41,846 nt of DNA, from contig NZFP01000017.1 in NCBI GenBank assembly GCA_002689325.1, positions 1 to 41,846 of the forward strand, given 5' to 3'. The notes beneath the pieces are model-generated. The model was not told the DNA's origin, ran no database searches, and saw only the letters and a list, made by a program, of their open reading frames with translations. The DNA is from Rickettsiales bacterium. Its GTDB lineage: Bacteria > Pseudomonadota > Alphaproteobacteria > Methylaequorales > Methylaequoraceae. The translations under genes and the position numbers were made by a program. Positions 4,263 through 8,033 of this stretch are shown here, piece after piece; the first letter of the stretch is position 1, and each line of letters opens with the position of its first letter.

Positions 4263-4697
4263 ATGATACAGTTTAATAGTTTTCTTTTATCTATATCTAC
4301 TTTATTTTTCTTATATTCTTGTGCTGGAGATAGTTTACTACCAGTAAAAGGCCCTGAAGGGGATCCCTCAACAGAATTAAGTTTAGCTGAATTTGATGAC
4401 CTTCCAATACCACTGAACTCTAAACTTGATAAAGAAAAATCCATTATATTTTCTAAAAAAAATGGATGGTATGGTCGATTAACCTTCAATACATCGGAAA
4501 AACAAATCAACGTGTACGATTTTTTTAGAAATGAGCTTCCAAAATTTGGTTGGAAAAAATTATCTGAAATCTCTTCCGAAACAAGTATATTAAATTATCA
4601 AAATCAAGCAAGATTAGCACTTATTCAAATAAAAGAGAATCTCTTATATGGAAGTAATGTAATGGTAACAGTTACTGAACTTGAATCCTCAAAGTAG
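4263..4697 (+). CDS. Small predicted lipoprotein of unknown function
   Basis: I do not recognise a named family. The 144-residue product begins with a hydrophobic signal segment ending in a lipobox-like LYSC, with Cys20 as the likely lipidated residue. Ala at +2 predicts outer-membrane sorting by the usual Lol rule. After a short Pro/Gly-rich linker, the domain holds DLPIPLNSKL, a GWYGRLTF strand and an amphipathic helix YDFFRNELPKFGW, so a small alpha/beta periplasmic domain is likely. It sits alone on the plus strand between a divergent peroxidase and a convergent recombinase-like gene. Its last nine bases overlap that gene's 3' end. No Shine-Dalgarno sequence precedes the ATG. Confidence 0.75.
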   Translation: MIQFNSFLLSISTLFFLYSCAGDSLLPVKGPEGDPSTELSLAEFDDLPIPLNSKLDKEKSIIFSKKNGWYGRLTFNTSEKQINVYDFFRNELPKFGWKKLSEISSETSILNYQNQARLALIQIKENLLYGSNVMVTVTELESSK

Positions 4698-5906
4698 AAT
4701 ATTTGTATCAGAATATTCAAGTTGTTCTAACCAACTCTTTTTCATATCAAGACTTATTTCTCTATTGTAAAGATTGTTCTTTTTTGACCGCCCTATTATC
4801 TCAAGAATCACTTCCTCAGGACATTCAATTTTAATAAGCCTTGATATAAAAAAAGATTTTATACCACCCAAAGGCTTTATTATTGAATTATTAATTAAAA
4901 TTTTTTTAATTAAATTTTCAAGATTTTTAATTTTTTTTTTATCAAAAAGAACCTTGCCATCATTTAACTTATTTAATATAAACTGAGCGCCAGATTTTGA
5001 TATTCCAATTAATGGAATAGTTCTATTTTTATAAATACTTTTAATTGGTCTTGTTGAATTATTTCTTATTATAATAAAAGATTGAAATTTATCTAGATAA
5101 ATATCGCTAGTTTCCAAGCCCATTAACTCATAAAGATTAGAACCTGAATATAACATCATTGAAAGTAATGAACTTTCAACTGATGGACATCTTTTACAGA
5201 AATTTTCTAATTTTTTAAAATCTTCGAATGTAATTGAACTATTGGTCAATTTTTTTTTTATTGAGATTGACTTTGTGGGTGGAAAAATTTTTTTCTTAAT
5301 TTCAAATTTGTCAAATGCCATTAAAAAAACTTTTTTTAAGAAGTGCAACCGAAAGTCCTTATTATTGAGTAAACTTAGATGAATCTTTTTAATATCTCCT
5401 GAGTTATATGAATTTATAGGTTTATCCCCACAAACATAAATAAAATTTGTTACAGTTTTTTTAAATTGGAGAAATTGATTAGGTTTAAATTCAAATTCCT
5501 TAATGAATGTTTCATTGAAGAAAACTGATAAAACAGGAATAGACTTGTGTATATTTGTAAAATATTTTTTGATATTTGAAACATTAATTTTAGAAAAATT
5601 TTTGTTTGAAAAAATTAAATCTGAAACGTAATCTTCATAATCATCCAAAAAATTAATGTCATAATCTTTTACTTTTATTTTTTGATTTTTAAAAATTTTA
5701 AGAAATGAGTCTTTTCGTTTTTCAGACAATTTATTAAACATCTTTTTATGTTCAATAGCCTGTAGCTTTGATCTAGTAATGGCTGTTTGTATTTTATTAG
5801 TATTGAGTGAGACTTTAATACTTCTAACTCCAACTAATTCTACTAATTTAAGAGGAACAGCTCTTTGATACCAAAACTTATTACCATGTTTATAAAGATA
5901 TTTCAC
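4689..5906 (-). CDS. Degenerate tyrosine recombinase (phage-type integrase relative)
   Basis: The 405-residue protein has the layout of alphaproteobacterial phage-type integrases. The N-terminus YLYKHGNKFWYQRAVP resembles the DUF6538-like region, a SAM-like core-binding part follows, and the C-terminal catalytic fold runs from about 225. Box I aligns as LYSGSNLYELMGLETSDI (252-269), where the catalytic Arg is Asn257. The box II HxxR motif reads GGIK (347-350) and the later LGH motif reads IGR (371-373). Tyr380 could still be the nucleophile. So the reading frame is intact but four of the five usual catalytic residues look replaced. The start is GTG without a Shine-Dalgarno sequence. It lies 42 bases from the tRNA-Leu 3' end, the classic integrase position. 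It could be an inactivated integrase or a domesticated DNA-binding protein. Confidence 0.7.
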   Translation of the reverse strand: MKYLYKHGNKFWYQRAVPLKLVELVGVRSIKVSLNTNKIQTAITRSKLQAIEHKKMFNKLSEKRKDSFLKIFKNQKIKVKDYDINFLDDYEDYVSDLIFSNKNFSKINVSNIKKYFTNIHKSIPVLSVFFNETFIKEFEFKPNQFLQFKKTVTNFIYVCGDKPINSYNSGDIKKIHLSLLNNKDFRLHFLKKVFLMAFDKFEIKKKIFPPTKSISIKKKLTNSSITFEDFKKLENFCKRCPSVESSLLSMMLYSGSNLYELMGLETSDIYLDKFQSFIIIRNNSTRPIKSIYKNRTIPLIGISKSGAQFILNKLNDGKVLFDKKKIKNLENLIKKILINNSIIKPLGGIKSFFISRLIKIECPEEVILEIIGRSKKNNLYNREISLDMKKSWLEQLEYSDTNILL

Positions 5907-5912
5907 ATATTA

Positions 5913-5940
5913 ATACTACATATCTACCACAATTTTTCAA
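5913..5940 (-). promoter_or_regulatory. Candidate promoter of the recombinase-like gene
   Basis: On the minus strand, TTGAAA (5935-5940) and TAGTAT (5913-5918) are separated by 16 bases. The -10 box ends six bases before the GTG start at 5906, the same spacing as at the aminotransferase gene. It would allow expression of the recombinase-like gene independently of the tRNA-Leu transcript. Confidence 0.4.
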
Positions 5941-5948
5941 TATTTATC

Positions 5949-6035
5949 TGGTGCGGCCGAGAAGACTCGAACTTCCACAGGATATTTCCTACAACGACCT
6001 CAACGTTGCGCGTCTACCAGTTCCGCCACGGCCGC
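5949..6035 (-). tRNA. tRNA-Leu (anticodon GAG)
   Basis: The minus strand folds into an 87-nt leucine tRNA. The acceptor is GCGGCCG paired with CGGCCGC. The anticodon arm CAACG-UUGAGGU-CGUUG carries GAG, followed by a long variable arm typical of class II tRNAs and a T arm with GTTCGAG-type loop. The discriminator is A, and the 3' CCA is encoded (5949-5951). It reads CUC/CUU codons. The 5' end lies nine bases after the pccA stop codon, so it is probably made from a pccBA read-through transcript. Its 3' end faces the recombinase-like gene. Confidence 0.97.
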
Positions 6036-6044
6036 ATAAATATT

Positions 6045-8033
6045 TTACTCGAATTCAAGTATAATTTGCTCAACTTCAAGGCTATCCCCTTCTTTACAAT
6101 TCACTTTTTTTACGACTGCTTTTTTTTCTGATTTTATAATATTCTCCATTTTCATTGCCTCTACAACAGCCAAGGGCTGTCCCTCTTCAATAACATCAGC
6201 TTCCTCAACAAGTACAGATACTAAAAGTCCAGGCATTGGAGCCATTAAAAACTTAGATTTATCTTCTTTTTTTCTAGGTTTCATTATTTTGTTTAATTCA
6301 GAATGTCTTTTTGACAAGACTAGTAAATCAAGTATACATCCTTTGTGGCCGATACTAATTTTTGGACCGTTTCTAAGTATTGAGAAGTAATGTAATTTAT
6401 TATCTACAATTGCAGAAAATAATGGATATCCTATCTTCCAATTACTTTTTATACTTATATGTTTATCTAAAAGATAAAGATCATAATTGTTATTATAGTT
6501 ATTATAGTTAATCTTAACTTCAATTTGCTTTGATTTATCTATAACATTCCATATATTTCCAACAGTTTTATTAAAACCTTTAAGCTGATTTGCAATGGAT
6601 GCAGCCCTAATTAAATACTGAAAATTTATAAAAGTTGCTACACAATACAATATTTCTTTTTCTTTTATATCTATGTCGTAAGAATTATATCCTTTTGGAT
6701 AATTTTCAGAGATAAAAGATGTGGAAAATGTTCCCTGCTTAAATTCTTTATTTTGAAGAATATTGGACAAAAAATCTTTATTTGTCTCAACACCTTCAAT
6801 AAAATATCTGTCCAGTGCATTTAACATCTCATTAATAGATGATGCTCTATCGTTTGAATGGGTGCAAAGCTTTGATATCATTGGGTCATAAAACATACTA
6901 ATCTCAGATCCTTCTACAACTCCTGAATCAATTCGTATTTTTTTTCCGAACGGTTCAATATACCTTGTTAATCTTCCAATTGAAGGAAGAAAATTTTTGG
7001 ATGAGTCTTCAGCGTAAATTCTGCATTCAATTGCGCTCCCATAAAAATTGATATCTTTTTGTTGAACTGAAAGTTTGTCTCCATAAGCTATCCTTATCAT
7101 TTGTTCTACTAGATCAATCCCAGTTGTAAGTTCAGTTACAGGATGCTCAACTTGTAATCTTGTGTTCATTTCTAGAAAATAAAAATTTTTATCTCTATCA
7201 ACTACAAACTCTACTGTTCCAGCTGAATAATATCCTACTGCTTTGGCAAGCTTTAATGACTGGTCAACCATCTGTTGTCTAAGGTTTGTATTTACAAATG
7301 GGCTTGGTGCTTCCTCAATTACCTTTTGATGTCTTCTTTGAATTGAACATTCTCGTTCTCCTAGGTGAACAAAATTTCCAAACTGATCACCTAAAACTTG
7401 AATTTCAATGTGCTTAGGAAATTCAATAAATTTCTCAATAAAAACCCTTTCATCTCCAAAGCTAGACTTGGCTTCATTTATTGCTGAATTGAAGTTTTCC
7501 TTAAGTTGTTTTTCATTAAATGCAATTCTCATTCCTTTGCCTCCTCCTCCAGCGGAAGCCTTTACCATTAAAGGATAACCAATTTTATTTGCTTCATTTA
7601 TTGCTTTGTCTAAATTCTTAATTGTATTAAGCCCACCAGGAACAACAGAAACCCCAGCTTTTTTTGCAATCTTTTTTGATTCTACCTTATCACCCATTAA
7701 TAAAATTGCCTGACTTGGGGGGCCAATAAATATTTTTCCTGCTTTATGTACTTCATCTCTGAATTGAACATTTTCTGATAAAAATCCATACCCTGGATGA
7801 ATAGCATCAGCTTTAGAAGATTTTAAGGCATCAATGATCTTAGAAATCACTAAGTAACTCTCTGCAGATGTCTGTCCACCAATATTAATGTATTCATCTG
7901 CCAAACTTACATGTGGTGAGTTTTCGTCTGGGTCAGAACAAATTGCAACAGTTTTAATACCTAGTCTCTTTGCAGTTCTTATAATCCTGGAAGCAATTTC
8001 TCCTCTATTGGCTATTAAAATTTTTTTAAACAT
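6045..8033 (-). CDS. pccA: Propionyl-CoA carboxylase, biotin-containing alpha subunit
   Basis: This 662-residue subunit carboxylates its own biotin using ATP and bicarbonate. The N-terminal biotin carboxylase starts FKKILIANRGEIASRI, has the Gly-rich ATP-grasp loop KASAGGGGKGM and the catalytic EMNTRLQVEHPVTE near 288-301. A middle region of about 450-590 matches in position the domain that joins alpha to beta in PCC. The C-terminal biotinyl domain carries EAMKMEN with biotinylated Lys628. The length fits PCC rather than the shorter AccC, and pccB is directly upstream (the ATG is two bases past its TAA). Together they convert propionyl-CoA to methylmalonyl-CoA. The related acetyl-/3-methylcrotonyl-CoA carboxylases are less likely given the partner. 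Confidence 0.92.
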   Translation of the reverse strand: MFKKILIANRGEIASRIIRTAKRLGIKTVAICSDPDENSPHVSLADEYINIGGQTSAESYLVISKIIDALKSSKADAIHPGYGFLSENVQFRDEVHKAGKIFIGPPSQAILLMGDKVESKKIAKKAGVSVVPGGLNTIKNLDKAINEANKIGYPLMVKASAGGGGKGMRIAFNEKQLKENFNSAINEAKSSFGDERVFIEKFIEFPKHIEIQVLGDQFGNFVHLGERECSIQRRHQKVIEEAPSPFVNTNLRQQMVDQSLKLAKAVGYYSAGTVEFVVDRDKNFYFLEMNTRLQVEHPVTELTTGIDLVEQMIRIAYGDKLSVQQKDINFYGSAIECRIYAEDSSKNFLPSIGRLTRYIEPFGKKIRIDSGVVEGSEISMFYDPMISKLCTHSNDRASSINEMLNALDRYFIEGVETNKDFLSNILQNKEFKQGTFSTSFISENYPKGYNSYDIDIKEKEILYCVATFINFQYLIRAASIANQLKGFNKTVGNIWNVIDKSKQIEVKINYNNYNNNYDLYLLDKHISIKSNWKIGYPLFSAIVDNKLHYFSILRNGPKISIGHKGCILDLLVLSKRHSELNKIMKPRKKEDKSKFLMAPMPGLLVSVLVEEADVIEEGQPLAVVEAMKMENIIKSEKKAVVKKVNCKEGDSLEVEQIILEFE

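Follow-up and report, generated by a model that had tools for sequence, protein, structure and literature searches.

Tyrosine recombinases that have lost their chemistry and serve as DNA-binding proteins are already known from phages (MrpR) and transposons (TnsF). MrpR (YopR), the master repressor of the Bacillus prophage SPbeta, has a recombinase fold and binds a short repeated operator; its catalytic residues are changed from R1 to V/S, from H to N and from H/W to V, with K and Y kept (PMC10516654). The tyrosine (Y304) is needed for DNA binding, which is apparently why it was kept, and the protein is described as consisting of core-binding (CB) and catalytic (CAT) domains only, without an arm-binding N-domain (PMC10516654). 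TnsF of Tn6022 is an inactivated tyrosine recombinase used for target recognition, and catalytically active relatives of it are known (PMC10293859). For the integrase-like gene described here, INT, the reading that we favour, with moderate confidence, is a domesticated, catalytically dead integrase that acts as a site-specific DNA-binding regulator, like the phage repressor MrpR.

INT lies on the minus strand (4689..5906) of the window, the whole 41,846-nt stretch of contig NZFP01000017.1 (assembly GCA_002689325.1) that was analysed, and is single-copy in this genome by whole-genome search. The frame, rightly described in an earlier note as open for 405 codons, comprises 405 codons plus stop and runs from a GTG start (5904-5906) to a TGA stop (4689-4691). 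Codons 1-60 (5727..5906, minus strand) encode an N-terminal domain of the arm-binding type, DUF6538 (PF20172), matched in Pfam over residues 3-60 (7.5e-11, 42 bits against a cut-off of 27) and containing strands at residues 2-7, 10-16 and 29-33 in the AlphaFold model. DUF6538 is a domain that occurs at the N-terminus of integrases. It was matched in 17/17 INT family members and is the best-conserved part of the protein: of the first 18 residues, 13 are identical in all 17 orthologues compared. A helical core-binding domain follows at codons 126-222 (5241..5531, minus strand; approximate boundaries), recognized from helices at 126-200 in the model and a match to the XerA/XerD N-domain profile, and codons 223-405 (4692..5240, minus strand) form a degenerate catalytic domain, identified by profile and structure matches.

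As a single query, the window INT retrieved no relatives from the genome or viral collections and no sensible solved structure, and alignment-based searches were required. The window protein alone gives weak integrase evidence (2.6e-4 against the PHROG integrase phrog_1), and its orthologues make the identity clear: phrog_1 was matched in 14/17 family members (best 2.3e-20) and Phage_integrase (PF00589) in 8/17 (best 2.4e-5), XerD, XerC and XerA models were matched by orthologues, and the INT profile matches solved XerA and XerD structures. AlphaFold models of the window INT (pLDDT 73) and of an orthologue from genus g7 (pLDDT 77) are of middling confidence (pTM 0.45-0.47), and the top fold matches of both are solely tyrosine recombinases (Tn1549 integrase, XerA and lambda Int, probability 1.00), with a TM of 0.79 between the core-binding domain of the g7 orthologue and lambda Int. 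Viral integrases were also matched in the fold search, and SroF of phage Phi3T (PDB 9rd5) was a weak match (E 6.6e-4, TM 0.39). By homology of its CB and CAT domains, in profiles and in fold, INT belongs to the tyrosine recombinase superfamily, and its recombinase identity is real. It shares the CB and CAT fold with lambda Int, the Tn1549/Tn916 integrase and XerA/XerD and, unlike them, lacks the catalytic residues.

Catalytic columns were set by aligning 17 INT family members to 14 complete relatives, and are certain because the DTGMR, GFRH, DRLRAVNCP and GGW stretches align unambiguously. Asn257 (5136..5138; this and the following codons are on the minus strand) occupies the position of the box I arginine (R1), which is Arg in 14/14 relatives and in 0/17 INT family members, where N, M, S, T or K replaces it. 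Gly347-Gly-Ile-Lys350 (4857..4868) stands at the H-x-x-R position; the box II histidine is kept in 0/17 family members (replaced by G/T/S/I/V/Q/L/K) and the box II arginine (R2) in 4/17, with K in 12/17 and G in 1/17. Arg373 (4788..4790), the last residue of Ile371-Gly-Arg373, falls at the third His/Trp position, which is Trp in 14/14 relatives and is kept in 0/17 family members (replaced by R/N/Q/M/V/L/I/K). Tyr380 (4767..4769) is invariant (17/17) and out of the canonical register: two residues fewer separate it from the third catalytic position than in the relatives. In the model it falls in a low-confidence stretch (378-381). Placements made by eye in the earlier note (Asn257 at the box I Arg, GGIK at HxxR, IGR at the third motif) are all borne out by this alignment. 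Its statement that only Tyr380 remains is right about the tyrosine and slightly overstates the loss, as the beta-hairpin lysine (Lys289) is still there in the window INT; that lysine is not conserved in the family (6/17). Neither the alignment to complete relatives nor the structural models, compared with XerD and lambda Int by fold search rather than atom-level superposition, put an Arg or His back in the active site. INT does not carry the R-K-H-R-H/W plus Tyr set of an active tyrosine recombinase, and recombination activity is, judging from the sequence, apparently fully gone.

To account for an open frame without catalytic residues, the earlier note had proposed either that the protein was domesticated for DNA binding or that its active site is divergent; the evidence supports this pair, strengthening the first and weakening the second. 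We regard it as very improbable that INT is still a recombinase with an active site rebuilt around the invariant tyrosine and R281, R286, R295, K344 and R356. Those five basic residues are indeed invariant in the INT family, as is the tyrosine, but the replacements at R1, H and H/W differ in each genus, and a divergent active site is weakened because they vary so freely. The displaced register of the tyrosine also argues against a rebuilt site, as do the counterparts of Arg295 and Arg356 that complete relatives carry outside the catalytic set, and no element, attR copy or partner site was found in the regions searched. MrpR likewise keeps its tyrosine, apparently for DNA binding (PMC10516654). 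The domestication option draws independent support from synteny and from a clade-restricted tandem motif, both described below.

The host genomes are those of HIMB59-type marine Alphaproteobacteria, including 'MED-G10 HIMB59' and single-cell genomes, and are small and streamlined (~1.3 Mb). In the window, a tRNA-Leu(GAG) gene (5949..6035, minus strand; ARAGORN), the ancestral integration site, lies 42 nt upstream of the INT start codon on the same strand (spacer 5907-5948). Beyond it is a gene for a biotin-dependent carboxylase alpha subunit (pccA-like; 6045..8033, minus strand; Pfam), which by synteny is the upstream neighbour with or without INT. On its other side INT converges with orf144 (4263..4697, plus strand), a 144-aa ORF with a lipoprotein-like N-terminus in a relative; the two ends overlap by 9 bp, and orf144 bounds the locus on its downstream side in every genome. 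INT orthologues were found in 20 genomes, all of the same family, one of them (G021) as a C-terminal piece at a contig end. INT lies just 3' of tRNA-Leu(GAG) in 19/32 sampled family genomes (7 genera), and every full-length copy is directly 3' of this tRNA, which precedes INT in 18 full-length orthologues. Where flanks were examined, the gene order is pccB-pccA-tRNA-Leu(GAG)-INT-(mgtE)-orf144 (opposite strand)-gpx-isochorismatase-glnA, mgtE being optional, and seven genomes of five sister genera have an empty site, where these neighbours occur but INT does not. A tree of seven neighbouring proteins separates genomes with INT from those without it as two clans (support 1.0); therefore one gain or one loss explains the distribution of INT.

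Between tRNA-Leu and orf144 there is INT alone, with or without mgtE, and no element with cargo; a second copy of the tRNA 3' end, as expected of an att duplication, was not found in the regions searched. INT is thus a gene directly 3' of a tRNA that lacks the cargo and duplicated att site of a mobile element. In some genomes 1.4 kb separates INT from orf144, a stretch whose size suggested a second integrase; this assignment was rejected, as the stretch reads as mgtE-like, that is, as a Mg2+-transporter-like gene (named by eye from sequence). Some genomes carry this mgtE-like gene between the tRNA-Leu locus and orf144 and others do not, irrespective of whether INT is there, and it also occurs in a genome that lacks INT. 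The spacer between tRNA and INT shrinks from 42-47 nt to 6-14 nt in genera g7, g10 and g12, so that in these genera INT is probably expressed from the tRNA transcript and has next to no leader.

All full-length INT copies are open (18/18, taking the true C-terminus), and dN/dS is 0.09-0.30 in within-genus pairs. Over the same pairs, INT has a dN/dS of 0.09-0.24 against 0.00-0.12 for glnA, pccA, gpx and alaB, and the accessory neighbour isochorismatase is close to INT (0.12-0.24). The N-domain has a dN/dS of 0-0.14, the lowest or near-lowest of four regions in every computable pair. Orthologues reach down to 33-44% identity with the window copy without decay. Homologues thus have intact frames and evolve under purifying selection, which answers the earlier note's concern that a dead integrase would normally decay. 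That INT is a neutral leftover, a dead integrase that has not yet decayed, is the least credible of the readings considered and is already contradicted: INT does evolve faster than its housekeeping neighbours, but dN/dS is well below 1 in every close pair, the full-length frames are all open, and the family diverged this far in streamlined genomes without decaying. We infer that what keeps INT in these genomes is DNA binding or contacts rather than catalysis.

The nearest relatives of INT, detected in a broader search, are integrases of other Alphaproteobacteria (1e-28 to 1e-41). All 14 have a complete R-K-H-R-W-Y set, with GGW at the third catalytic position, and all 14 lie directly 3' of a tRNA gene (Arg, Phe, Gly, Leu, SeC or Thr). 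At or near the int ATG they carry a tandem repeat with a period of 11-12, its sequence individual to each integrase; GGTAGACCGAATGGTAGACC and GGTCGTAGAAATGGTCGTAG are the repeats of relatives at tRNA-Leu(GAG). Relative spacers reach p<0.05 against dinucleotide shuffles in 7/14 cases (~0.7 expected), with p values that allow several periods over a 140-nt stretch and with half of the relatives missing this level. These active DUF6538-type tRNA integrases resemble INT in domain order, in position 3' of a tRNA, in a homologous CAT domain and, for 7/14 at p<0.05, in the tandem repeat at the int start; they differ in having a complete active site and in being scattered over tRNAs instead of fixed at one family-wide locus. 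A more distant, complete integrase within the host family of INT (L111/L112) gives the same catalytic alignment (profile-profile comparison, probability 95, 2e-8). L111 and L112, each from a different g7 genome, are near-identical and complete integrases of the DUF6538 type; their neighbours are also shared, and they probably mark a recently moving island.

In four genera, the interval that separates tRNA-Leu from the INT start codon contains a tandem motif, TTGTGGTAGAAWTGTRGTA, and a 21-mer, TTGTGGTAGAAATGTAGTATT, is common to the tRNA-to-INT spacers of g1, g3, g8 and g11. The motif is a tandem direct repeat, TGTGGTAG-AAW-TGTRGTA, with an 11-bp period. In the window it reads TTGTGGTAGATATGTAGTATT (5912..5932, minus strand), separated by 16 nt from the tRNA and by 5 nt from the GTG, and is a putative binding site and autoregulatory operator. 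Counted sites were limited to <=2 mismatches because a 3-mismatch search was no better than its control. At this level the motif is present in 23/25 genomes of INT-bearing genera, against 2/7 INT-less genomes (weak 2-mismatch matches), and a reversed-pattern control gave 1 match in 32 genomes; at <=1 mismatch it was found in 1/140 other Alphaproteobacteria. Motif copies number 1-4 per genome and are almost restricted to the INT-bearing clade. At the window locus, motif conservation is 0.87 against 0.40 and 0.53 in the flanks, and most motif sets have an identity of 0.84-0.97 against flanks of 0.40-0.67. In one recent set the downstream flank, too, is conserved (0.88), owing to its overlap with the end of a coding sequence, and a pair of TonB-type sites is too similar to separate motif conservation from flank conservation. 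Eight viral contigs with the motif were judged to be chance matches, mostly inside apparent coding stretches and with no adjacent tRNA evident. At INT itself the motif is absent from g7, g10 and g12, which have 6-14 nt between tRNA and start codon; autoregulation through the motif therefore cannot be universal.

In all six genomic contexts the motif lies 3' of the upstream gene and in its sense, and the genes flanking motif copies have no obvious shared function. A second site occurs at tRNA-Ser(GCT) in g7, g8 and g10, 3-6 nt after this tRNA in g8 and ~65 nt after it in g7, a genus whose INT spacer is too short to hold the motif. In g7 and g8 the site falls between tRNA-Ser(GCT) and a convergent MAPEG-like gene, and is conserved while the spacer diverges. 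In g3, g7, g8 and g10 the motif lies <=4 nt after the stop of a gene for a ~210-aa secreted protein, which has no Pfam match and is followed by genes that vary between genera; a search for this gene in motif-less genomes gave almost no matches. A hairpin seen by eye at these sites (CTACCA...TGGTAG) was dropped because its upstream arm does not survive differences in the coding sequence. Further copies stand behind genes that look, by eye, like those for a TonB receptor and a substrate-binding protein. In two genera, apparently homologous proteins of ~220 aa with GLSVEDAIK stretches start 60-90 nt downstream of the motif; the upstream genes at these sites differ (contig C36 of the window genome versus G009).

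The N-terminal domains of lambda-type integrases bind directly repeated arm-type sites. The tandem motif probably belongs to INT, by analogy, because its active relatives carry a similar tandem repeat in the same place; with this shared position and layout, and arm-site binding by such integrases, the simplest reading is that the motif is an old arm site. This former arm site would now be an operator, and would have been copied or have re-evolved elsewhere. A rival that is unlikely, yet the most serious of those weighed here, accepts INT as a dead DNA-binding protein and assigns the TGTGGTAG tandem motif to another clade-specific regulator, with INT binding elsewhere (for example, at a core site in tRNA-Leu) or acting through protein contacts. 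Because INT and the motif mark the same single clade, their association amounts to one phylogenetic event, and g7 and g10 keep INT without a motif at INT; both points suit this rival. Against it, four genera have the motif at the start of INT, a tandem repeat occupies the corresponding position in complete relatives, and the one-turn tandem layout is that expected, from general knowledge of lambda-type integrases, of arm-type sites.

Position at tRNA genes could be read in another way, with INT guarding tRNA-Leu(GAG) by occupying the attachment site and blocking phages or islands that use it. We consider this improbable. INT is always found at tRNA-Leu(GAG), complete relatives use this and other tRNAs, and tRNA-Ser(GCT) has the second motif site in three genera; however, other motif copies follow protein-coding genes, g7, g10 and g12 have no motif beside tRNA-Leu, and the INT-less sister genera also have a clean tRNA-Leu. 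An alignment-based search of the viral collection with INT found nothing, and no viral contig in that collection has a close INT relative. About equally doubtful is a role as a host-owned, sequence-specific roadblock at gene 3' ends that ends or insulates transcription, a dedicated bacterial equivalent of mTERF-like terminators, built from an integrase; this is suggested by the tandem site lying just downstream, in the same orientation, of tRNA-Leu(GAG), tRNA-Ser(GCT) and several protein genes.

Under the favoured reading, of INT as a domesticated regulator, its ancestor would have belonged to an alphaproteobacterial integrase family whose elements integrate at tRNA gene 3' ends, and the ancestor of one half of the HIMB59-type family would have gained such an element at tRNA-Leu(GAG). 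The rest of the element would then have been lost, leaving the integrase gene alone, and the recombination chemistry would have gone too, with INT retained as a sequence-specific DNA-binding regulator. INT is predicted to bind the tandem motif through its DUF6538 N-domain and core-binding domain, with two adjacent protomers offset by one turn of the helix, and this binding would regulate transcription. In the window genome, the copy that lies 5 nt ahead of the INT start codon suggests autoregulation by self-repression. INT may act at zero to three further loci per genome, 3' of tRNA-Ser(GCT), the ~210-aa secreted protein gene and others. One to four sites per genome make a small regulon.

On present evidence INT would work like MrpR and TnsF, a likeness of proposed mechanism rather than a claim of membership in either family. 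With MrpR it shares a tyrosine-recombinase fold, replaced catalytic Arg and His and a kept Tyr, and, as in MrpR and SroF, the fold stands without its catalytic residues, the operator here being the candidate motif. MrpR is phage-encoded in a Bacillus host and has no arm-binding N-domain, whereas INT, likened to it by description and fold, is chromosomal, vertically inherited and tRNA-linked and has DUF6538. TnsF is likewise an inactivated tyrosine recombinase serving as a DNA-binding module; unlike INT it is a transposon target selector with zinc fingers, a partial CAT domain and a TniQ partner, and INT has pccA, tRNA, orf144 and gpx as neighbours, no transposon genes, and DUF6538 as its N-domain. 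If the favoured reading holds, INT would be a dead recombinase encoded in the chromosome and fixed at a single locus in seven genera of streamlined marine bacteria, and its cognate motif would be scattered through the genome. This would show an integrase arm site turning into an operator, in a simple protein-DNA pair with living active relatives for comparison, and a solitary 'integrase' next to a tRNA would not be enough, in a small genome, to infer a mobile element.
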